From: Alicyclobacillus sp.
GTDB taxonomy: Bacteria; Bacillota; Bacilli; Alicyclobacillales; Alicyclobacillaceae
Reading direction: 5' to 3'
DNA length: 64,000 nucleotides
NCBI GenBank assembly: GCA_023511295.1
Contig: JAIMBT010000021.1
Location: forward strand, 1 to 64,000
In this document: one piece after another, positions 18,865 through 28,716 of the stretch
Numbering within the stretch: the stretch's first letter is position 1
How the letters are laid out: every line of letters begins with the position of its first letter
Program-made: the position numbers and the translations under genes
Notes under the pieces: generated by a model
Databases searched by the model: none
The model's input: only the letters and a program-made list of their open reading frames with translations
Told to the model about the DNA's origin: nothing

Positions 18865-19701
18865 CTATTCGACGTGCGCAATCACAGCGCACCCGGCCAC
18901 ATCCAGCCCGGCAGCGAGGAGAGGCGTCAGACAGGCCTGCAGCGTGGCGCCGGTTGTCACGACGTCGTCGATGAGCCACAGGGGCACCTTGCGCGGCGGC
19001 GCGCATGCGACGTCAAACGCGCCGCGCAGCGATTGTTCACGAGAGACAGCGGACTTGGCCGTCTGGGTGCCAGCGTCCGGTCGCCGGGACAACACTTGGA
19101 CGACCGGCACACCCAACCGAACGCCAAGTTCGGACGCAAGGAGCAGGGTGTGGTGGTACCCGCGGGCGCGGTAGCGCTCCACAGACGTCGGCACCGGGAC
19201 GATGATGGTATCCTGGAATCCATCCGGCGACGGACCCACCACAGCCAATAGATGGGCCATGTGTGCCGCGAACCAACGCGTGGCATCGAGGACCCCATCG
19301 TACTTCCACGGTCGAATCAATCGTTGCACGAACCCGCCGTATCGGAACGCGCTGTACACCGGCACCTGTTTGCCGGCCACTTGCAGATGCCGACCGTAGC
19401 AACCGGGAGGTTGCGAGTAGGCCTCCTCCAGGCATAGCGGGCACACCCAGCGACCCAGGACCGCCTCCGTTTCGACGAGGTGAACCCGTTGCTGGGCCGC
19501 GGGACCGAAATCCCCCTCGACCAGCGGCTTTGAATGCCACCCACCCCCGCGGTTTGGGCGATGGCACAAAATGCAGGGAGAAGCCTGCGGATAGAGCGCA
19601 TCCAACACAGCCGTGAACCCGCGCCGCAGCCGCAGTCGGGCGCTGACCGCCGGGAGCGCCTGCACCGGTCCAGACACGACGAGTCCCTCCCGAGCAGTCA
19701 C
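18865..19701 (-). CDS. comFC: ComF family phosphoribosyltransferase-like protein (ComFC)
   Basis: The 278-residue protein has an N-terminal zinc-binding region (CILCHRP, then CPLC) and a C-terminal phosphoribosyltransferase fold with the PRPP loop LWLIDDVVTTGATL. Such proteins are needed for DNA uptake in competent Bacillus. The start overlaps the degV stop by 4 bp, so the pair is translationally coupled. The helicase gene comFA, which usually lies between degV and comFC, is missing. Confidence 0.9.
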   Translation of the reverse strand: MTAREGLVVSGPVQALPAVSARLRLRRGFTAVLDALYPQASPCILCHRPNRGGGWHSKPLVEGDFGPAAQQRVHLVETEAVLGRWVCPLCLEEAYSQPPGCYGRHLQVAGKQVPVYSAFRYGGFVQRLIRPWKYDGVLDATRWFAAHMAHLLAVVGPSPDGFQDTIIVPVPTSVERYRARGYHHTLLLASELGVRLGVPVVQVLSRRPDAGTQTAKSAVSREQSLRGAFDVACAPPRKVPLWLIDDVVTTGATLQACLTPLLAAGLDVAGCAVIAHVE

Positions 19702-20543
19702 ACCGTGGTCGGGTACCAGATGAGCGCCATCAGCCCGGCGCCGGTATGGGTGCCAATCACCGGGCCTAGTTCACTCTGTGCGAAGTCGTGTTGCGGGTAC
19801 TGCGCCTGTAACTCCTGCATCAACGCGGCTGCTTCCGGCTCCCGCTCGGCGTGGATGACGCCGACCCGCAACCTCGGCACGGTGCTGGCCGCAGCGTGAA
19901 ATTCGTTGAGGATACTCTCCATCGCCTTGCGGTGCGTGCGTACCTTCTCGTAGAGCTCAATGCGGCCGTCCACCATATGCAAGATGGGCTTAATCTGCAG
20001 GAGCGAACCGACGACTGCCGCTGCGCCGCCGATTCTGCCACCTTTCCGAAGGTTCTCCAAGGTGTCAATCACGAACCGAGCCTGCATTGCCTCCCGCACC
20101 TGTTCCCAGTAGACTTGGATGTCCTCCGGCGCCGCACCCTGCCAGGCCATTCGGACACCGTCGAGCAGCGGTCCGGCAATCCCGTAACTGGCAATCTTCG
20201 AATCGACGACAATGACCCGTCCGTCGACGGACGCCGCGGCCGTCTTCGCCGACTGCAGAGTGCCGCTCAAATTCCCCGAGAGCAGAAGGCACATGACCGC
20301 GTCATGGTCAGCCAAGAGGCGCCGAAAAGTCGCCGCGAACTCCCCTACGGGCGGTTGCGAAGTGGTCGGGAGGGTCGCCGCTTGGCGAAGCTTCGCGTAG
20401 AACGTCTCATTGTCGAGGTCCACCCCTTCCCGAAACACCTCGTCGCCGAACACGACGGACAGCGGCACCACGGTCACACCAAATTCGACAGCCTGTTCCG
20501 CCGTGAGGTATGCCGTGCTGTCCGTGACAAATGCGATATTCAC
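19698..20543 (-). CDS. degV: DegV family fatty-acid-binding protein
   Basis: DegV proteins bind a fatty acid and, in FakB form, present it to the kinase FakA. This 281-residue chain begins MNIAFVTDSTAYLT, carries the DVxLL-like segment HDAVMCLLLSGNLSGTLQSA, and has a second domain ending in the GPVIGTHTGAG loop. The GTG at 20543 gives this canonical N-terminus and has AGAGG nine bases upstream. It is followed by comFC with a 4-bp overlap. In Bacillus degV follows degU directly; here 4.9 kb of other genes intervene. Confidence 0.9.
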   Translation of the reverse strand: MNIAFVTDSTAYLTAEQAVEFGVTVVPLSVVFGDEVFREGVDLDNETFYAKLRQAATLPTTSQPPVGEFAATFRRLLADHDAVMCLLLSGNLSGTLQSAKTAAASVDGRVIVVDSKIASYGIAGPLLDGVRMAWQGAAPEDIQVYWEQVREAMQARFVIDTLENLRKGGRIGGAAAVVGSLLQIKPILHMVDGRIELYEKVRTHRKAMESILNEFHAAASTVPRLRVGVIHAEREPEAAALMQELQAQYPQHDFAQSELGPVIGTHTGAGLMALIWYPTTV

Positions 20544-20692
20544 TGCAATCATCCTCTTTTCAAGGGAATCTCGCTTTCATGATTGGTATATTAACGGGTA
20601 TATGGTAACATTTCGATTAAGTACACGAACGCACACACCGAATCCGGCGCCCCTGCCGGTCATTCGCCCATTCGATGACAGGAGGGCCATCC

Positions 20693-22030
20693 ATGCGAAC
20701 CTTGGGACAGAAAATTCGAGAGGCTCGCCTCCAGCGAGGTCTCACGCAGCACGACCTGGCTGGAAATTTGGTGACCGCCAGCATGATTAGCCAGATTGAA
20801 GCGGACCGAGCCAACCCATCTTTCACCCTGTTGCGCAGCATTGCAGACCGCCTCGGTTTGGATGTCCGCTACTTCCTGACCGACATGGACGACAAATACA
20901 TCACCACAGCCCGGTTGAAATTGGTGCAGTACCACCTGCTGTCAGGGGATTTGCCGAAGGCCCTTGAAGCGCTGGACGAGATAGAGCGGCCGGAGACGCC
21001 TGGCGAGAACCTCCACCTGTACCTGTGCGTCAAAGCGACGGCGCTGCGCCTGGCCGGGCAGTTCGTCGACGCGGTCCACCTCGTGGAGGAACTGCGCGAG
21101 CAAGCGTATCGCACCATGGACAAGCCCCTGCTTGTACAGGTCCACCGAGAGTCAGGGTATATTGAATATGCCATGAACAACTTCCAGGGCGCAATGATGG
21201 AGTGGAGAGAAGCCGCGCGTTTAGGCGAGGAACTGCTCGAGACACCGGTGACCGACAGCGTGGAGCTGGGTTGGGATCTGACGGATGTGTACCTGTCGCT
21301 GGCGGATTTGTGCCAGCAGACCGGCGACGACGAAGAGGCGCGCGGTTGGTTGAACAAGGCCCATCAATTGGCAGGGTCGGCCCCGTTGTTGAAGCGGATT
21401 GCCGATACGTACGTCCGCGCCGCCCACGTGCTGCTCGACGACCGGTTGCCCGGACCGGCTCACTCAGCGGCTGAGAAAGCTCTGGCTGTGATGGGAGCGG
21501 CACGGCAGGTGGAGCGCCAGATTGTCATCCTCGCCAGGCTGCAAGATGAGTCGGCTCCATCGGCGGAATCCCTTGCAGCGCTGCCCCTCGACGATTGGTC
21601 GTACTCGGCCATTGAAACTTCCGGAACAGACCCCGTGGAGTTTCTGGACACGGAGGTGAACCTGCTCGAGACGTGGATCCGCCAGGGAAACCTCGAACGA
21701 GCGCGAGATCGGATGGAGAGGGCCTCCAAGCTGATGGAGGGCTACCGACATCAGCTCGATGCGGAGCCGAACTGGTACGCTGCACTGGACCTCCGCCTCA
21801 AAGTGTGCCAGGCGGATTGGCTCCATGCGAGCGGAAAGCAGAACGAGGCTGCCATACAGCTACAGACCGTGCTAAAGGAGGCAGATCCGCTGGACGATGA
21901 TCTGCGGCGGCAACTCTTCTCGCGTCTGCTGGGGTGGTACGCAGAAATGGGAAAAGTGGACGAGGTGGTGAAGTTGACCGAGCAATTGCGGGCCCAAGTC
22001 CAGGACGATGCGTCCATCGCCACTCTCTAG
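20693..22030 (+). CDS. XRE-type HTH regulator with TPR domain (RRNPP-like)
   Basis: Residues 1-65 form a Cro/CI-type helix-turn-helix (GQKIREARLQRGLTQHDLAG, then MISQIEADRANPSFTLL). Residues from about 75 to 440 are a run of helical tetratricopeptide repeats (for example LVQYHLLSGDLPKALEALDE). The 445-residue layout is that of NprR-type members of the RRNPP family, whose TPR domain binds a short exported-and-reimported peptide; this is a family inference. ATG 20693 has AGGAGGG seven bases upstream. It stands alone on the plus strand, and its stop overlaps the stop of the convergent GGDEF/HD-GYP gene in the tetranucleotide CTAG. A possible promoter is TTGGTA-N17-TAACAT just upstream. Confidence 0.88.
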   Translation: MRTLGQKIREARLQRGLTQHDLAGNLVTASMISQIEADRANPSFTLLRSIADRLGLDVRYFLTDMDDKYITTARLKLVQYHLLSGDLPKALEALDEIERPETPGENLHLYLCVKATALRLAGQFVDAVHLVEELREQAYRTMDKPLLVQVHRESGYIEYAMNNFQGAMMEWREAARLGEELLETPVTDSVELGWDLTDVYLSLADLCQQTGDDEEARGWLNKAHQLAGSAPLLKRIADTYVRAAHVLLDDRLPGPAHSAAEKALAVMGAARQVERQIVILARLQDESAPSAESLAALPLDDWSYSAIETSGTDPVEFLDTEVNLLETWIRQGNLERARDRMERASKLMEGYRHQLDAEPNWYAALDLRLKVCQADWLHASGKQNEAAIQLQTVLKEADPLDDDLRRQLFSRLLGWYAEMGKVDEVVKLTEQLRAQVQDDASIATL

Positions 22031-23859
22031 GCGAGGTCTTCTTCGTGGCTCTCGGTCAGAAGGCCAATCTCCTCGACGACCTCAATGAAGGGTTCGACGA
22101 GGTTTGGGTCAAACTGGCTACCAGCGCAACGGCGCAACTCGATAAACGCCTCCTCCATCGACCGCTTGCGCTGATAAGGTCGACTGGTGGTCATGGCGTC
22201 GAAGCTGTCTGCGATGGTAAGGATGCGGGCTTCCAAGGGGATATCATCGCCCTTTAAGCCATCCGGGTAGCCTGTCCCATCGTACCGCTCGTGATGGTGG
22301 CGGATGATGGGCAGGCATGGTCCCAAGCTGGGAATCGGCTTCGCAATGTTCTCCCCAATCTCCACGTGCGACCGCATAATCTGCCACTCGTGGTGCGTGA
22401 GCGGCCCACGCTTCGCCAGCACCTCAATCGGTACCTCTACTTTGCCGATGTCATGCAGGTAGGCACCAAAGCGCAGATACCGAAGTCGCTCGGCAGACAG
22501 GCCGACGCGTTCCGCCAGTGCGGACGCGTACACGACATCGCGTTCGGTGTGTGCGTATGTATAGCGATCTTTGGAGTTCAAGATGGCGAGGAATACCTGA
22601 ATCGTCTTGATGATCTCCTGGTCATCGTGATCAAGTGCAAAGTCCCGCTTCATTTCGTCGAGGACAGACTCAAACAGCGAGACCTTGTTCCGCCCCGTGA
22701 ACTTTCCCTTGTACAACGCTTCGTCGACCATCACCATGAGTTCTTTCTTGTTGCGCGCCATCTCGGGAAAGCGGGCGACACCGATGCTCACGGTCATGCG
22801 ACGCCCGGGAAGCTGATCTGCGCCCGGAAAGTCGGCGGATTCGATGGCGCGCCGCAGCACTTCGGCCTTAAGTTGCGCCTGAGCGAGATCATAGTTGGGC
22901 AGCAATACCATGAACTCCTCCCCGCTCACCCGCGCCTGCTCTTCGCCGGGCAACAGGTTCGCTCGGAGGATGTCGGCGACGGCGCGCAGGGCGTCATCTC
23001 CCCGCACATGACCCCAGATCTCGTTGTAGCGCCGGAAGTGATCAATATCCAACATGAGCAAGGCGAACTCAGACTTGGCCTCAATCCACTCGTCGATCTT
23101 GGAATGGATGTAGCGGTGGTTGTGCAAACCCGTCAACTCGTCTGTGATGGCGAGGGCCCGGAAGTGCCGAGCCATCTTGAAGTAGTCGCGGTAGGACCAC
23201 GCGACCAACATGACGAGGGCCGTGAACAGCAATGCGCCGGCGAGGCCTGCGGTATGTAGGACTGTGGCAAGCAACACACCGAGAAGAATCTCGATGCAAT
23301 ACACGAGTAGGACCTGCGGGGGGTATGTCTCCTTCCACAGCGCTCGAAAGTCTCTCATTCCAACGTAAACAGCTAGGTGCAAACCGAAAAATGCCATATG
23401 CGCAACGATGAAGACCAGCGTGAAAACCAACATCGAAGCAGCCCACGAAGGATCCGACGGCGACGGGGCAGAGCTGAACAGGCCGTAGACGGACCGGGCA
23501 AAGAGTATCACAGCCACAGTTCCAGCTGCATTGGCGACCTGCGTATACCAGAACTTTCCGTACCGGATTCCTGTGCTTAACGCGTACGCCACTCCGGCCC
23601 ACGCGACCACGTACAAAGGATAGGCTAACGAAAACCCGATGAGGTACACGTCCTCCAGAGTCATATCGGCCTTGGCGTGAATCGGAATGCGGGAGCGTTC
23701 CGCAAGAACGAGCAACCCAGAGAGGGTGTAAAAAACCACCCACTCCGGGATTGACAATGCCCCATGTCGCGAAAAGGCCCAGAAGCTAATCCCCGAACAG
23801 ATCACAAGCGCGAAGACCGTAGACCTGATAGCCCTGGACCGCTTGTTACCCCCGTTCAT
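22027..23859 (-). CDS. Membrane-bound GGDEF / HD-GYP cyclic-di-GMP protein
   Basis: The first ~210 of 610 residues contain about six membrane helices. A GGDEF domain follows (ITDELTGLHNHRYIHSKI; the active-site loop reads SGEEF instead of GGDEF), with no RxxD inhibitory site before it. The C-terminus is an HD-GYP phosphodiesterase domain with the complete signature (AYLHDIGKVEVP, HHHERYDGTGYPDGL). The protein may both make and degrade cyclic-di-GMP, or use GGDEF as a GTP sensor. ATG 23859 has GAGGGG seven bases upstream and overlaps the end of the DUF5317 gene by 14 bp, so the two are coupled. Confidence 0.9.
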   Translation of the reverse strand: MNGGNKRSRAIRSTVFALVICSGISFWAFSRHGALSIPEWVVFYTLSGLLVLAERSRIPIHAKADMTLEDVYLIGFSLAYPLYVVAWAGVAYALSTGIRYGKFWYTQVANAAGTVAVILFARSVYGLFSSAPSPSDPSWAASMLVFTLVFIVAHMAFFGLHLAVYVGMRDFRALWKETYPPQVLLVYCIEILLGVLLATVLHTAGLAGALLFTALVMLVAWSYRDYFKMARHFRALAITDELTGLHNHRYIHSKIDEWIEAKSEFALLMLDIDHFRRYNEIWGHVRGDDALRAVADILRANLLPGEEQARVSGEEFMVLLPNYDLAQAQLKAEVLRRAIESADFPGADQLPGRRMTVSIGVARFPEMARNKKELMVMVDEALYKGKFTGRNKVSLFESVLDEMKRDFALDHDDQEIIKTIQVFLAILNSKDRYTYAHTERDVVYASALAERVGLSAERLRYLRFGAYLHDIGKVEVPIEVLAKRGPLTHHEWQIMRSHVEIGENIAKPIPSLGPCLPIIRHHHERYDGTGYPDGLKGDDIPLEARILTIADSFDAMTTSRPYQRKRSMEEAFIELRRCAGSQFDPNLVEPFIEVVEEIGLLTESHEEDLA

Positions 23860-24397
23860 TCGCAAGCCCCTCATTCCCCAGACGCATTGCGTACTGGATC
23901 AAAACGATCAACCCAATTGAGAACAATACGTCTCCGATACTTAGCAGGCTACCAGACCACACATTGAAAGCGAAGATATCGCCCAAAAAATTCAGGTGGG
24001 TATGCCCACTCATCGCTATACTTTTCCCATAGTGACCAGCTTTGAGGGCCGGCAGGATCTGTGGTGCCATCATCTGGATTGCCGGTACATATGCAGGCAT
24101 CCTCAGACCGTTTGAGAGCAGTGCAACGAAGTTGCAGACCGTACCAGCCAAGGTCCAGGCGACACCAGGTACACGCATATTTACCAAACAAAACGCTATG
24201 AGTAATACATAGCTCAGGACGATAGTTACCTCGTAAACTGTGCCGGAAAAATAGGATATGGAAATATGCTGGAGAATGTAGGGAACCGGTAACATCCACA
24301 GAACGCGAAGCCGGAGGTTCCCCATGTTCCACAGGCTGCCCTTACGAATCCAGCCTATCACTAATCCAGCCAAAATAACTAGTACCTCAAAGGTCAA
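23846..24397 (-). CDS. DUF5317 family membrane protein
   Basis: A 183-residue polytopic membrane protein with about five hydrophobic helices and the pattern of DUF5317: a central LLSNGLRMPAYVP segment and a GDIFAFNVWSGSLLSIGD loop near the C-terminus. Function unknown. The start is a TTG at 24397 preceded by GGGGTGG. It is noticeably richer in A+T than its neighbours, a hint of a different origin. It overlaps the downstream GGDEF/HD-GYP gene and is separated from the upstream 31-codon gene by a strong terminator. Confidence 0.82.
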   Translation of the reverse strand: MTFEVLVILAGLVIGWIRKGSLWNMGNLRLRVLWMLPVPYILQHISISYFSGTVYEVTIVLSYVLLIAFCLVNMRVPGVAWTLAGTVCNFVALLSNGLRMPAYVPAIQMMAPQILPALKAGHYGKSIAMSGHTHLNFLGDIFAFNVWSGSLLSIGDVLFSIGLIVLIQYAMRLGNEGLANERG

Positions 24398-24427
24398 TTT
24401 TCCACCCCATTCGACACTATACTAGGA

Positions 24428-24456
24428 AAGGAAAAGGCCGGAGAACCGGCCCTTTC
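24428..24456 (-). terminator. Terminator of the 31-codon gene
   Basis: A perfect GGCCGG-n4-CCGGCC stem is followed on the minus strand by TTTTCCTTT. It begins about 25 bp past the small gene's stop and would isolate that gene from DUF5317. Confidence 0.85.
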
Positions 24457-24477
24457 CCGAATCACTCACTTAACTTA

Positions 24478-24573
24478 TCAGCTTCCAGGTATGATGTTGA
24501 CAGCTGCTTGCGCGGCCACATAAAACAGAACAATTGCACCGAAAAACAATCCAGACTTCACCTTGTTCGACAT
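24478..24573 (-). CDS. 31-residue secretable or membrane peptide
   Basis: An ATG at 24573 preceded by GAGGAGG opens a 31-codon frame closed by TGA and a strong intrinsic terminator, a complete single-gene unit. The product has a short basic start (K4, K6), a hydrophobic core (LFFGAIVLFYVAA), an AQA motif and an eight-residue tail AVNIIPGS. This is the layout of a minimal signal peptide followed by a short mature peptide, as in Phr-type signals, but a single-pass membrane protein is equally possible. It is co-oriented with the DUF5317 and GGDEF/HD-GYP genes. Confidence 0.7.
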   Translation of the reverse strand: MSNKVKSGLFFGAIVLFYVAAQAAVNIIPGS

Positions 24574-24739
24574 CGGCGGTTCCTCCTCAGAATAAGGGAC
24601 AGATTCGTCCCGATTCTGAAGTGCTGTGGTGTGTGCTGTGTCAAATAAGTTGCCTGTCAGGTCACCTTACACGTGGTCAGTGAGTCCAACAAGCCGTTGC
24701 TGCGATGTGTGCTGCAGGAGTTACACCCCGATTGACTGC

Positions 24740-24745
24740 ATTATA
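24740..24745 (-). promoter_or_regulatory. Possible -10 element upstream of the 31-codon gene
   Basis: A perfect TATAAT on the minus strand lies in an A+T-rich stretch 167 bp upstream of the small gene. A convincing -35 at 17 bp was not found (TTGTCA is only 7 bp away). The rest of 24574-24847 shows no gene. Confidence 0.35.
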
Positions 24746-24847
24746 CGATGTCTGACAATCGATTACTAGCGGGTTTGTAAAAGATAGGACTTTTGTCCCG
24801 AAATTTATCCAGCCCTAACCATTTTCAGCTCAATAATTGTCGTATTT

Positions 24848-25288
24848 TTAAGGAAGCAGAGACAAAGCGTCGCGCGTGACGTCGCGGAGAAGTTCAAAAT
24901 GCCGAAGGTCGTAGACGCAGCACACCGCCGTGGAGCTGGCACACAAGGCGCGTAGCTGTTGTGCGACCTCGTCCTCGTTGTGCACCGAAACGCAAACCAT
25001 CCCACCGTAGTCTTCTGCAATCCGCTGGGCAATCTCCAGTGTGTGGTCTGTCGAATGGACGTCAATCACACACACCGTGCGCCGACGGGCCGAGTACGCG
25101 GTGCTCGCGAGCAAGGTTCGCAGCAGCCCCTCGATACTAGACTCCACGTTTTGAACCAGGAGGATGATTTGCACGGGATGCGCCGGGCCGGCCGCGCTGC
25201 GCCGTCGCGCGATGGCCCGTACCGACTGCCACACAACCATCACCGCGCCGTACACCGCAAGAGCCCAGAAAAACAACGCTTCCAACAT
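24848..25288 (-). CDS. Short membrane-anchored protein with glycosyltransferase-like fold
   Basis: This 146-residue protein has one N-terminal membrane helix (MLEALFFWALAVYGAVMVVW), a basic stretch, then a segment resembling the start of a family 2 glycosyltransferase (VQIILLVQNVESSIEGLLRT, followed by VIDVHSTDHTLEIAQRIAE). The rest of a GT2 domain, including a clear DxD site, is missing, so catalysis is doubtful. The ATG at 25288 has GAGGGG seven bases upstream. Function unknown. Confidence 0.75.
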   Translation of the reverse strand: MLEALFFWALAVYGAVMVVWQSVRAIARRRSAAGPAHPVQIILLVQNVESSIEGLLRTLLASTAYSARRRTVCVIDVHSTDHTLEIAQRIAEDYGGMVCVSVHNEDEVAQQLRALCASSTAVCCVYDLRHFELLRDVTRDALSLLP

Positions 25289-25449
25289 GGTCGTCACCCC
25301 TCGCTGCAATATATGCCGAGCAGCGAGGGCGGACTCCGTGTGGAAGCGGATTTCGATGCGAACGTGCGTTCAGGATATGCCATCGGCGCGCCTGTTCGAA
25401 CCTCGGTGCCGACGGAGGGCCAGTGCACGAGTTGCTCCAGCGGCGGACG

Positions 25450-26106
25450 CTAAGAGGGCAGCCACTTGCGTTTCACGGCGACCAGAACCGCCTGCGTGCG
25501 GTCTGTGACCTCCAACTTTGAAAAGATGCTGGAGACGTGGTTCTTCACCGTCTTCCCGGTGATGTGCAGCATTTTGGCGATGTCGTCGTTGCTGCGGCCG
25601 TTGGCAATCTCCCGCAGCACGTCCATTTCCCGATCTGTCAGCACATCCCGCCAACTTTCGTTCAGGTCCGCATGAAACTGGAACTGGGCGATGACGGTAT
25701 GCGTCACCTGTGGATGAACGATGGCTCGTCCGGCGTACACCTCGCGGATGGCGCGAATGATCTCTGTCGCAGATCCGTCTTTCACCAAATACCCAGAGGC
25801 CCCCGATTTGAGCGTCTCCAGGACGTACCCGTCTTCGTCGTGCATGGTCAGGATGATGATGCGCACGTCTGGGTATCGCTGTTGGATGCGCTTCAGCGCC
25901 TCGACACCGTTGAGATACGGCATGTTGATGTCGAGCAGGACCACATCCGGCTGCACGTCCTCGAGTCCGAGCAGTAAGTCGGCTCCATGCCGCCAGATGC
26001 CGACAATCTGAATGTCTGGTTCATATTGCAAAATCTCGCGGACGGTCTCGCGAAACTGTTCGTTGTCATCGGCGATCCCGACGCGAATCGTTGGCTGGTT
26101 AGGCAC
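25450..26106 (-). CDS. degU: NarL/LuxR-family response regulator DegU
   Basis: The 218-residue protein has an N-terminal receiver domain (acidic pocket ADDNE, phosphoacceptor Asp59 in VVLLDINMP, conserved Lys in LVKDGS) and a C-terminal LuxR-type helix-turn-helix (LTDREMDVLREIANGRSN, then KTVKNHVSSIFSKLEV). In Bacillus DegU governs exoenzymes, competence and motility. Its start overlaps the degS stop by 8 bp, so kinase and regulator are coupled. Confidence 0.9.
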   Translation of the reverse strand: MPNQPTIRVGIADDNEQFRETVREILQYEPDIQIVGIWRHGADLLLGLEDVQPDVVLLDINMPYLNGVEALKRIQQRYPDVRIIILTMHDEDGYVLETLKSGASGYLVKDGSATEIIRAIREVYAGRAIVHPQVTHTVIAQFQFHADLNESWRDVLTDREMDVLREIANGRSNDDIAKMLHITGKTVKNHVSSIFSKLEVTDRTQAVLVAVKRKWLPS

Positions 26107-27253
26107 CCCACTGTTCTCCCCTATCTAACGGCAGTTGCATCACAACCCGGGTCCCGCTTGCACCTTCCCGGTTATCGCCGTATACCTCAAGCGTACCGCC
26201 GAGAACGGCCATCCGTTGACGGCAGATCATCAGGCCGAGCCGTCCGTTCTCTACCCATTCGCTCCATTCTGCAGTGGACACCCCGACCCCGTCGTCGCGG
26301 ACCTCTACACCGAGCCGGGCGTCTCCGTACGTCAGTCGGATCTCCACGTGACGCGCGGCGGCGTGCTCCGCCACATTGCGCAGCGCTTCTTGCACGCATC
26401 GGAAAATGGAGATCTTCTCCGTTGGCGCGAGCCGGGCTTCCATCCCAACCAGGGTGACGGTGGTGGCTACATCGTGGCGCTCTGTCCACTGTGCGGCGTA
26501 CCGTTTTAAGGTGGGGACCAAGCCGAGGTCGTCCAACAGCGGCGGGCGCAGATCAAACACAATCTGCCGGAGGTCGTGAATGACGTTACCAAGTCGCTCC
26601 TGCAAGTCGCGTTTCACGTCTCTATCCCCCGCCCGCCCGTAGTCCGCAGACTGCATCCGCATCGAGACGCTCGCGAGGTGCTGCATGGGGCCGTCGTGAA
26701 GCGTCCGGACCAGCTGGCGGCGCTCGTCCTCTTGCAGGTTCAACATCCGCATCCCGACAATCCGCAGTAGGTGCGCGTCCTCCAAGGTGGTCGCCAAGTC
26801 TCCGAAGTCGACATCAAGGCTCTGCGCGGCCCGGCTGAACTGAATCAGGAGCTCCTCCGCCTGCTGCGCGGTCACGCGGATGGCTTTCAACCGCCGGGCA
26901 ATCTCATCTCTCCTCAGGCGAAGCTGCACTTCTCGCTCCTGCCACTGCCCAAGGGCGGACTGCAACTCGTACGCTTCGTCATACACCCGCTTCATGTCCT
27001 GTTCCGAGCGTCCATCTGCCTTGCGACTGATGGCGGCCAAACGCTGTCGCGCCTTTCGGCTCTCCAGCTCGAGGTTCTCCACGCGTGCAATCGCCTCAGC
27101 ACACGCCTGTTGCATCTCCTCGTACTCCGCTTCCAAGATGCGAACTTCCTGCTGGGTGGCCTCGGCAATCTGTTCGACCTGGCGACGCCCCTCGGAGATA
27201 GCCTGCAACGTATGTCGAATGGTGGTGCGCATCTGTTCGATCCGGTCCTGCAT
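26099..27253 (-). CDS. degS: Cytoplasmic sensor histidine kinase DegS
   Basis: This 384-residue kinase has no membrane segment. A long coiled-coil sensor region (residues 1-180) precedes a HisKA_3 dimerisation helix with the phosphorylated His in RTLHDGPMQHLAS and a GHKL ATPase domain (VQEALRNVAEHAAARH, EVRDDGVGV, NGRLGLMICRQRM). It phosphorylates DegU. The ATG at 27253 has GAGAGGG upstream. The metK terminator lies just upstream, so degSU is probably transcribed separately. Confidence 0.92.
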   Translation of the reverse strand: MQDRIEQMRTTIRHTLQAISEGRRQVEQIAEATQQEVRILEAEYEEMQQACAEAIARVENLELESRKARQRLAAISRKADGRSEQDMKRVYDEAYELQSALGQWQEREVQLRLRRDEIARRLKAIRVTAQQAEELLIQFSRAAQSLDVDFGDLATTLEDAHLLRIVGMRMLNLQEDERRQLVRTLHDGPMQHLASVSMRMQSADYGRAGDRDVKRDLQERLGNVIHDLRQIVFDLRPPLLDDLGLVPTLKRYAAQWTERHDVATTVTLVGMEARLAPTEKISIFRCVQEALRNVAEHAAARHVEIRLTYGDARLGVEVRDDGVGVSTAEWSEWVENGRLGLMICRQRMAVLGGTLEVYGDNREGASGTRVVMQLPLDRGEQWGA

Positions 27254-27403
27254 CGGACACCATCCCTCTCGGGGACCCTGTCGACCCGTGTCGGTTGCGA
27301 TACTGATGCATTCGACAATTTGACAGCGGTTCCTTCAATCGGGAACGCTCGTCATGCCCAATTTTGGGCATAGTGGCGCACGTACATGGTTGGTGTCTCA
27401 TGC

Positions 27404-27440
27404 ACAAAAAAACGGCACGCTGCAACTCGACAGCGTGCCT
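27404..27440 (-). terminator. Terminator of metK
   Basis: GGCACGCTG and CAGCGTGCC form a perfect 9-bp stem followed on the minus strand by seven T residues. It starts about 80 bp after the metK stop. Confidence 0.93.
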
Positions 27441-27519
27441 GAGGGTAAGGGTGATGATACACCTTTCGGCGACCCGCTCTCCGATGTGGGGGTCGTGCGC
27501 GGCAAGACGCCCGGCGGCC

Positions 27520-28716
27520 TTACAGCCGTTGGGCCGCCTCCGCCAGCACCGCCGCTTTGTCCGTCCGCTCCCACGGCAGGTCGAGATCGCTGCGCCCGAA
27601 GTGTCCATACGCCGCCGTCTGGCGGTAAATCGGCCGGCGCAGGTCGAGATCTCGGATGATGGCCGCCGGCCGGAGATCAAAGTGGTCGCGGATGAGACGC
27701 ACGATGGCGTCCTCGCTGATCTTGCCGGTGCCGTAGGTGTCCACCGAGATTGAAACCGGGCGGGCCACCCCAATCGCGTACGCGACTTGGACCTCGCACT
27801 TCTCCGCCAAACCCGCCGCAACGATGTTCTTCGCCACGTAGCGGGCGGCGTATGCCGCACTGCGGTCCACCTTCGTGGGATCTTTCCCTGAGAACGCACC
27901 CCCGCCATGGCGGGCGTAGCCGCCGTAGGTGTCCACGATGATCTTCCGGCCCGTGAGTCCTGCGTCGCCCTGCGGGCCACCAATCACGAAGCGCCCCGTC
28001 GGGTTGATGAAGTAGCGCGTCTCGGCGTCCAAGAACGCGGCCGGGACCACGGGGTCGATGACGTGCCGCCGCAAATCCCGATCTATCTCCGCCAACTCCG
28101 TATGCTCGTCGTGCTGCGTAGAGATGACGATGGTGTCCACGCGGCGTGGCTTGCCGTCCTCGTACTCAATGGTCACCTGGGTCTTGCCGTCGGGCCGCAG
28201 ATACGGCAGCGTCCCATCGCGCCGAACTTCGCTCAGGCGGCGGGCCAGGCGGTGGGCGAGTGAGATTGGCAACGGCATCAGTTCCGGCGTCTCGTTGCAG
28301 GCAAATCCGAACATCAGGCCTTGGTCACCCGCGCCAATCCGGTCAATCTCCTGGTCCGCATCCGCCCCACTGCGCGTTTCGAGTGCAGCGTCGACACCCT
28401 GAGCGATGTCCGGCGACTGTTCGTCAATAGACGTGATGACCGCGCAGGTTTCGGCGTCAAAGCCGTACTTGGCGCGCGTGTAGCCAATCTCCTGGATGGT
28501 GCGCCGAACCACTTTCGGGATGTCCACGTAGCAATCGGTCGTGATTTCACCGGCCACGAGCACAAGGCCCGTGGTCACCGACGTCTCACATGCTACACGG
28601 GCGTTCGGGTCTTTGGACAAGATCTCATCCAACACTGCGTCAGAGATCTGATCACAGATTTTATCGGGATGCCCTTCCGTGACGGATTCGGACGTAAACA
28701 GTCGACGATTGCCCAC
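27520..28716 (-). CDS. metK: S-adenosylmethionine synthetase
   Basis: MetK makes S-adenosylmethionine from methionine and ATP. The 398-residue chain carries the N-terminal [20 protein letters not shown], the ATP motif [10 protein letters not shown], and the P-loop-like [16 protein letters not shown]. The start is a GTG at 28716 with AAAGGAGG seven bases upstream. No SAM-I riboswitch core was recognised upstream, but the leader contains nested palindromes. Confidence 0.96.

Follow-up and report, generated by a model that had tools for sequence, protein, structure and literature searches.

Between degV and degU of an Alicyclobacillus sp. lies a group of signalling genes whose smallest member, a tiny gene for a signal-peptide-like product, raises a question: with which of its neighbours does it work? 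We analysed the 64,000-nt window of contig JAIMBT010000021.1 (assembly GCA_023511295.1) that holds this locus; all coordinates are positions within the window. A first-pass annotation had described a regulator with a helix-turn-helix (HTH) and tetratricopeptide repeats (TPR), a cyclic-di-GMP (c-di-GMP) protein of the GGDEF/HD-GYP type, a DUF5317 membrane protein and the tiny gene, and had proposed a switch in which a short exported peptide acts on the regulator and tunes c-di-GMP. All of these domains and genes were found where it had placed them. The switch itself was only partly upheld: the tiny gene is tied genetically to DUF5317 and the HD-GYP protein, but its link to the regulator did not hold. 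We favour, with a probability just below 60 %, the reading that the peptide and DUF5317 form a cassette serving as input module for c-di-GMP turnover, the HTH-TPR regulator standing apart from it.

The tiny gene and its partner DUF5317

The tiny gene (24478-24573, minus strand) encodes 31 amino acids, MSNKVKSGLFFGAIVLFYVAAQAAVNIIPGS, and is preceded by a strong Shine-Dalgarno (SD) sequence in a near-invariant region (TGAGGAGGAACC). Homologs were present in 20 of 41 genomes of the Alicyclobacillaceae. The alignment of the homologs at the deg locus gave the consensus MSxKVKAxLIFGAxVLFSVAAQA, followed by a variable tail of 6-15 residues; K6, G12, A13, A20, A21, Q22 and A23 were invariant. Over 20 core codons in 19 genomes, the ratio of non-synonymous to synonymous differences (pN/pS) was 0.21 with synonymous differences near saturation, thus the amino acid sequence has been kept by selection. 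Together with the distribution of the homologs, this value also argues against a chance open reading frame (ORF), and the first-pass annotation was right to take the tiny gene as real and signal-peptide-like. Searches of Pfam and NCBIfam with representatives from three lineages yielded no match; the peptide gene is previously undescribed. Its product looks like a membrane-directed peptide with an export-signal-like segment.

Tiny genes were recognised by a fixed filter (22-40 amino acids, SD sequence, hydrophobic core, early Lys or Arg). Directly upstream of DUF5317, such a gene was present in 18 of 18 deg-locus cases and 10 of 10 second-locus cases of DUF5317 in the Alicyclobacillaceae, compared with 9 of 305 upstream regions of other genes. 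The second DUF5317 locus is more diverged and lies elsewhere in genomes of the genera g2 and g3; its downstream gene encoded in every case a histidine kinase with PAS, HisKA and HATPase domains. The pair of tiny gene and DUF5317 also occurred in genome G040 and in loci of a sister family that belongs to the same taxonomic order. Tiny genes of the type MKFKITM..MFVLAAxSA[FY][KR]LD preceded DUF5317 in Bacillus timonensis, B. pinisoli, Neobacillus terrae and one Bacillota metagenome-assembled genome (loci L108-L111), and those of the type MKKAI.FA..ATMFA.SA.. were located upstream of DUF5317 in G452 and G496. A profile of the Bacillus-type peptide, applied to 399 Bacilli genomes, gave mostly chance matches and a single genuine one (G452). 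In B. pinisoli (L109:5386-5732), two near-identical tandem tiny genes were accompanied by a third such ORF that begins differently but has a similar tail (GFRLD, GFRLD, GWRLD). The pair of tiny gene and DUF5317 is the core of a putative functional unit.

All second-locus peptides ended in PW plus a hydrophobic residue (EIPWV, ETPWL, APWPWI, VQSPWF), which points to the tail as working part at this locus. The Bacillus-type loci contained a second tiny ORF that differs from the first at its start and matches it in an end of the [FYW][KR]LD type; because this otherwise different ORF shares the tail motif, the tail is likely the working part in these lineages. Such converging tails would be needless for a mere stub, and they weigh against a tiny protein that is never released and acts as a small membrane subunit, stabilising or tuning DUF5317 and the enzyme like other small regulatory membrane proteins. 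The invariant AAQA, which stands at the end of the hydrophobic segment as a signal peptidase site would, argues in the same direction. At the deg locus, however, the hydrophobic segment was more conserved than the tail, and an excess of small protein over its partners, as the terminator described below would yield, suits a subunit. We consider this explanation doubtful, although it is the strongest of the alternatives.

A GC-rich intrinsic terminator or hairpin followed directly after the tiny gene, ahead of DUF5317, in nearly all lineages (24425-24458, minus strand, in the window; -23.6 kcal/mol, z -4.3). This conserved position is also what would be expected if the tiny ORF were a leader peptide, with translation of its last codons controlling the read-through of the terminator into DUF5317 and no further role for the peptide; the presence of Pro near the stop codon in 15 of 19 deg-locus tails is in line with such an attenuation. 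It leaves unaccounted for the purifying selection on the hydrophobic part, the unequal lengths and differing ends of the tails and, in Bacillus, the duplicated tiny ORFs and the further ORF that shares their tail. Attenuation is thus an unlikely explanation of the arrangement.

Output enzymes and upstream control

The DUF5317 gene (23846-24397, minus strand; PF17248, E 4e-25) has a TTG start and encodes a multi-pass membrane protein; its 3' end overlaps the start of the HD-GYP protein gene by 29 nt. GC content was 0.49 in DUF5317 and in the tiny gene with its leader versus 0.63 for the whole window, in agreement with the lower GC noticed in the first pass. Of the 55 loci with sufficient flank, 52 had an HD-GYP gene at most 2.6 kb from DUF5317, and of 30 further loci with a flank of only 1.5 kb, 24 had one near DUF5317. 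These neighbourhoods included Geobacillus, Paenibacillus, Bipolaricaulota and Caldatribacterium. DUF5317, a family without known function and not named in the literature searched, thereby gains consistent genomic partners, either an HD-GYP protein or a histidine kinase, and in several families the tiny peptide. The AlphaFold (AF2) model of DUF5317 had a mean confidence (pLDDT) of 92. Compared with PDB folds, it gave no Foldseek match below E 0.001, and the best VIA-align matches (Z 5.5) were to unrelated folds. Among 57 sequences an Asn, two Asp, Thr and Gly-rich motifs were invariant, with no Cys or His. The invariant Asn and the two Asp may invite speculation on an LspA-like aspartyl peptidase, yet a significant fold match was lacking in the PDB.

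The HD-GYP protein (22027-23874, minus strand) combines an input domain of several transmembrane (TM) helices with a GGDEF domain (Pfam E 1.2e-35) and an HD-GYP domain (HD_5, 3.6e-41). The phosphodiesterase motifs HDxGK, HHE and GYP are intact, and the protein most likely degrades c-di-GMP. At the GGDEF site, the window protein and 14 of the 16 homologs checked have SGEEF, and the Bacillus protein has GGEEF. The multi-TM input domains of the HD-GYP proteins belong to one family across the lineages (hhalign E 1e-31).

The tiny gene is preceded by a structured leader of 163 nt (24571-24733, minus strand), the 5' end of which pairs with the SD sequence and start codon of the tiny gene. Compensatory changes are numerous in an inner helix, and another helix, the third, borders directly on the SD sequence. 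Pairing was retained in 92 % of the cells over 16 sequences, in comparison to 37-54 % with slid partners, and none of 500 shuffles reached this value. Two-sided changes in 8 of 28 pairs, a minimum free energy z of -2.95 and the location of SD and AUG within the stem characterise the leader as a cis-regulatory structured RNA. In G034 and G037 the start codon was shifted by a few bases and the same upstream stretch was still largely paired. The covariance model, which scored the window leader with 147 bits, had one match per genome, located only before the tiny gene, and other matches were at noise level; the reading as a multi-target riboswitch is thus rejected. A known riboswitch is rejected as well for the window leader, as the Rfam riboswitch search of 20400-27600 up to E 10, RF01051 included, gave no match.

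In some related cassettes, the place of this leader is taken by a described RNA. The c-di-GMP-I riboswitch (RF01051) was detected directly upstream of the tiny gene in six cassettes (L108, L109, L110, L111, L292 and L332). Four of these are the Bacillus-type loci, and the other two, from G017 (A. pomorum) and G016 (A. contaminans), are of the second-locus type. The connection to c-di-GMP drawn by the first-pass annotation is strengthened by these riboswitches. B. timonensis has a second c-di-GMP-I riboswitch (82.6 bits; L108:3834-3917), which lies upstream of its cassette but is encoded by the other strand.

The promoter of the tiny gene has the -10 box TATAAT (24740-24745, minus strand), kept in every aligned leader that retained the 5' part; the -35 position is occupied by CTAGTAA or CTAGCAA, not by TTGACA. 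Further upstream an operator-like dyad, GGGACAAAAGTCC (24787-24799, minus strand), recurred in identical or near-identical form and at a constant distance in about 13 of 20 homologous loci. With one mismatch allowed, the Alicyclobacillus sp. genome itself contained 8 sites, versus 1 for the reversed pattern. In that genome, two copies of this dyad (GGGACAAANGTCC) at a distance of 23 bp precede both a c-di-GMP-I riboswitch (RF01051, 80 bits) and an operon for a Flp-type pilin (L232, C32:7791-7826); another tandem pair, also 23 bp apart, was near a tRNA gene (L229, C5:47648-47683). The dyad resembles a box of the DosR/NarL family; a literature search for the DosR-box pattern found nothing specific. 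Just upstream of DUF5317 lies the motif TGTCGAA (24410-24416, minus strand), the core of the Spo0A box (PMC3485338). This core was present in 30 of 35 cassette loci, against approximately 3.5 expected from shuffles and 61 of 268 for other genes. The locus is probably under the control of Spo0A.

The HTH-TPR regulator and the deg locus

The regulator gene (20693-22030, plus strand) has the SD sequence aggagg 7 nt upstream of the ATG at 20693. With 445 amino acids, an HTH_3 domain (E 7e-12) and matches to TPR models, its product shows the layout of RRNPP receptors (250-500 amino acids, HTH plus TPRs), as the first-pass annotation had seen. The top fold match in the PDB was the PlcR-PapR-DNA complex, and ComR, NprR, Rap and Rgg were within the top 50; overall TM-scores (template modelling scores) were low, generic TPR proteins scored too, and the pLDDT of the model was 79. 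Validated RRNPP receptors and propeptides are separated by gaps of -50 to 191 bp, and a range of -60 to 400 bp has been used for searching them (PMC10075063). The regulator and the tiny gene are 2448 bp apart, in convergent orientation and with the HD-GYP and DUF5317 genes in between.

Receptor and propeptide would also be expected to be inherited together, and at the deg locus they were not. Among the 41 genomes, 14 had both regulator and cassette, 6 the cassette only, 13 the regulator only and 8 neither (Fisher p 0.74). When DUF5317 was counted at any position in the genome, 24 of 27 genomes with the regulator had it, compared with 6 of the 12 complete genomes lacking the regulator (p 0.014, a statistic that ignores kinship); this weak association was driven largely by one subclade. 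Three genomes had the regulator without any DUF5317, a combination found in genus g5. Strictly, tiny gene and DUF5317 are not missing from most genomes with the regulator, an absence that the first-pass annotation had named as evidence against its proposal; the converse independence, though, holds. Quorum sensing of the RRNPP type, with an exported tail that is re-imported and binds the HTH-TPR regulator, has in its favour the receptor-like layout and those tails that, with 6-9 residues, are of pheromone size, and is nonetheless highly improbable, since distance and independent inheritance speak against the pairing. Most economically, the regulator is a separate neighbour of the cassette, which does not require it. 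In G020 (Alicyclobacillus mengziensis, L067:11661-11882) a regulator remnant with several stop codons was found at the conserved place.

The first-pass annotation had considered the segment as inserted between degV and degU. This is ruled out by synteny: with 41 genomes from 16 genera compared, most genera of the family showed the order comF-degV-regulator-HD-GYP-DUF5317-tiny-GT2-like-degU-degS-metK at this position. HD-GYP protein, DUF5317 and tiny gene were jointly missing from the deg locus in the genera g2, g5 and g16, where the regulator was retained; g4, g10 and one genome of g15 had all three but no regulator there. In the window, degV (19698-20552, minus strand) borders the regulator, and degU and degS occupy 25450-27253. 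Between degU and the cassette, a short ORF conserved across the family (24848-25309; 25-50 % identity) encodes one TM helix and a truncated GT2-like domain, a size insufficient for a complete glycosyltransferase. Between metK and the cassette, degS, and in some cases also degU, was undetected at L071, L072, L079, L080, L081 and L090; the DegS-DegU pair appears to be split or lost in several genera.

A proposed route from peptide to c-di-GMP, and known systems

How could such an input module operate? RNA would gate the production of the peptide, by a c-di-GMP-I riboswitch in some lineages and by an orphan leader hiding ribosome binding site and start codon in the lineage of the window. Through the terminator, more of the peptide would be made than of the proteins encoded downstream. 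By its signal-like segment, the peptide may enter the membrane or be exported, and the short tail may act on DUF5317, whether released by a cut at the A-x-A-like site or left on the peptide. DUF5317 in turn could set the activity of the neighbouring membrane-anchored enzyme, the GGDEF/HD-GYP protein here and the PAS histidine kinase at the second locus. In lineages with the riboswitch, c-di-GMP would feed back on peptide production, and Spo0A may tie this loop to the decision for sporulation or biofilm. Taken as a whole, the cassette looks like a peptide-controlled lifestyle switch present in several bacterial families.

Several observations count against the cassette as a peptide-driven input module. 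No tiny gene was detected beside the DUF5317-HD-GYP pairs of Geobacillus and Paenibacillus (L169, L136 and L142 among the loci of these two), Clostridia, Bipolaricaulota and Caldatribacterium, hence DUF5317 can function without it; at the Geobacillus and Paenibacillus loci DUF5317 may have another input. The input domains of HD-GYP proteins and kinases were weakly similar, with a hhalign probability of 80 % or 19 % depending on the profile used. The deg-locus tails varied strongly among genera. Finally, in some peptides of the second-locus type the residue that follows the presumed cleavage position is a Pro, which speaks against signal peptidase I.

A more far-reaching version, which we put forward only tentatively, is a new class of peptide signalling: DUF5317 would mature or sense a peptide that is secreted or sits in the membrane, and this peptide would directly gate a c-di-GMP phosphodiesterase or the second-locus kinase, with its own production switched by c-di-GMP riboswitches or an undescribed riboswitch-like leader. 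If true, this would be an Agr-like layout made from unrelated parts and feeding a second messenger. Should the peptide control the enzyme, a small peptide would be connected directly to c-di-GMP, for which, to our knowledge, few cases are known in Gram-positive spore formers. The locus also contributes a structured leader RNA that is new, and it offers a testable case in which c-di-GMP riboswitches drive the gene of a tiny peptide rather than that of a classical effector.

Known systems share single traits with the cassette. RRNPP systems such as PlcR-PapR, NprR-NprX and Rap-Phr have in common with it the short secretable-type propeptide with a C-terminal tail of pheromone size and, nearby, an HTH-TPR regulator with a PlcR-like fold; unlike in these systems, the peptide gene is apart from the receptor-like gene and inherited independently of it, and the constant partner is a membrane protein. 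The AgrD-AgrB-AgrC system resembles the cassette in its small peptide gene, its multi-pass membrane protein and its signalling enzyme with multi-TM input, which is a histidine kinase also at the second locus. DUF5317, however, matched only its own family in Pfam and, devoid of invariant Cys and His, is not an AgrB; the tiny peptides had no AgrD match in the family searches, and the output of the main cassette is an HD-GYP phosphodiesterase. Operons under c-di-GMP-I (GEMM) riboswitches are matched by the six cassettes with the aptamer directly before the tiny gene, whereas the leader in the window is another structured RNA without an Rfam family. The window protein shares the intact catalytic motifs of the HD-GYP and GGDEF phosphodiesterases and differs by its SGEEF site and the regular pairing of its type with DUF5317. 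We report the cassette as peptide or small-protein signalling from undescribed parts.

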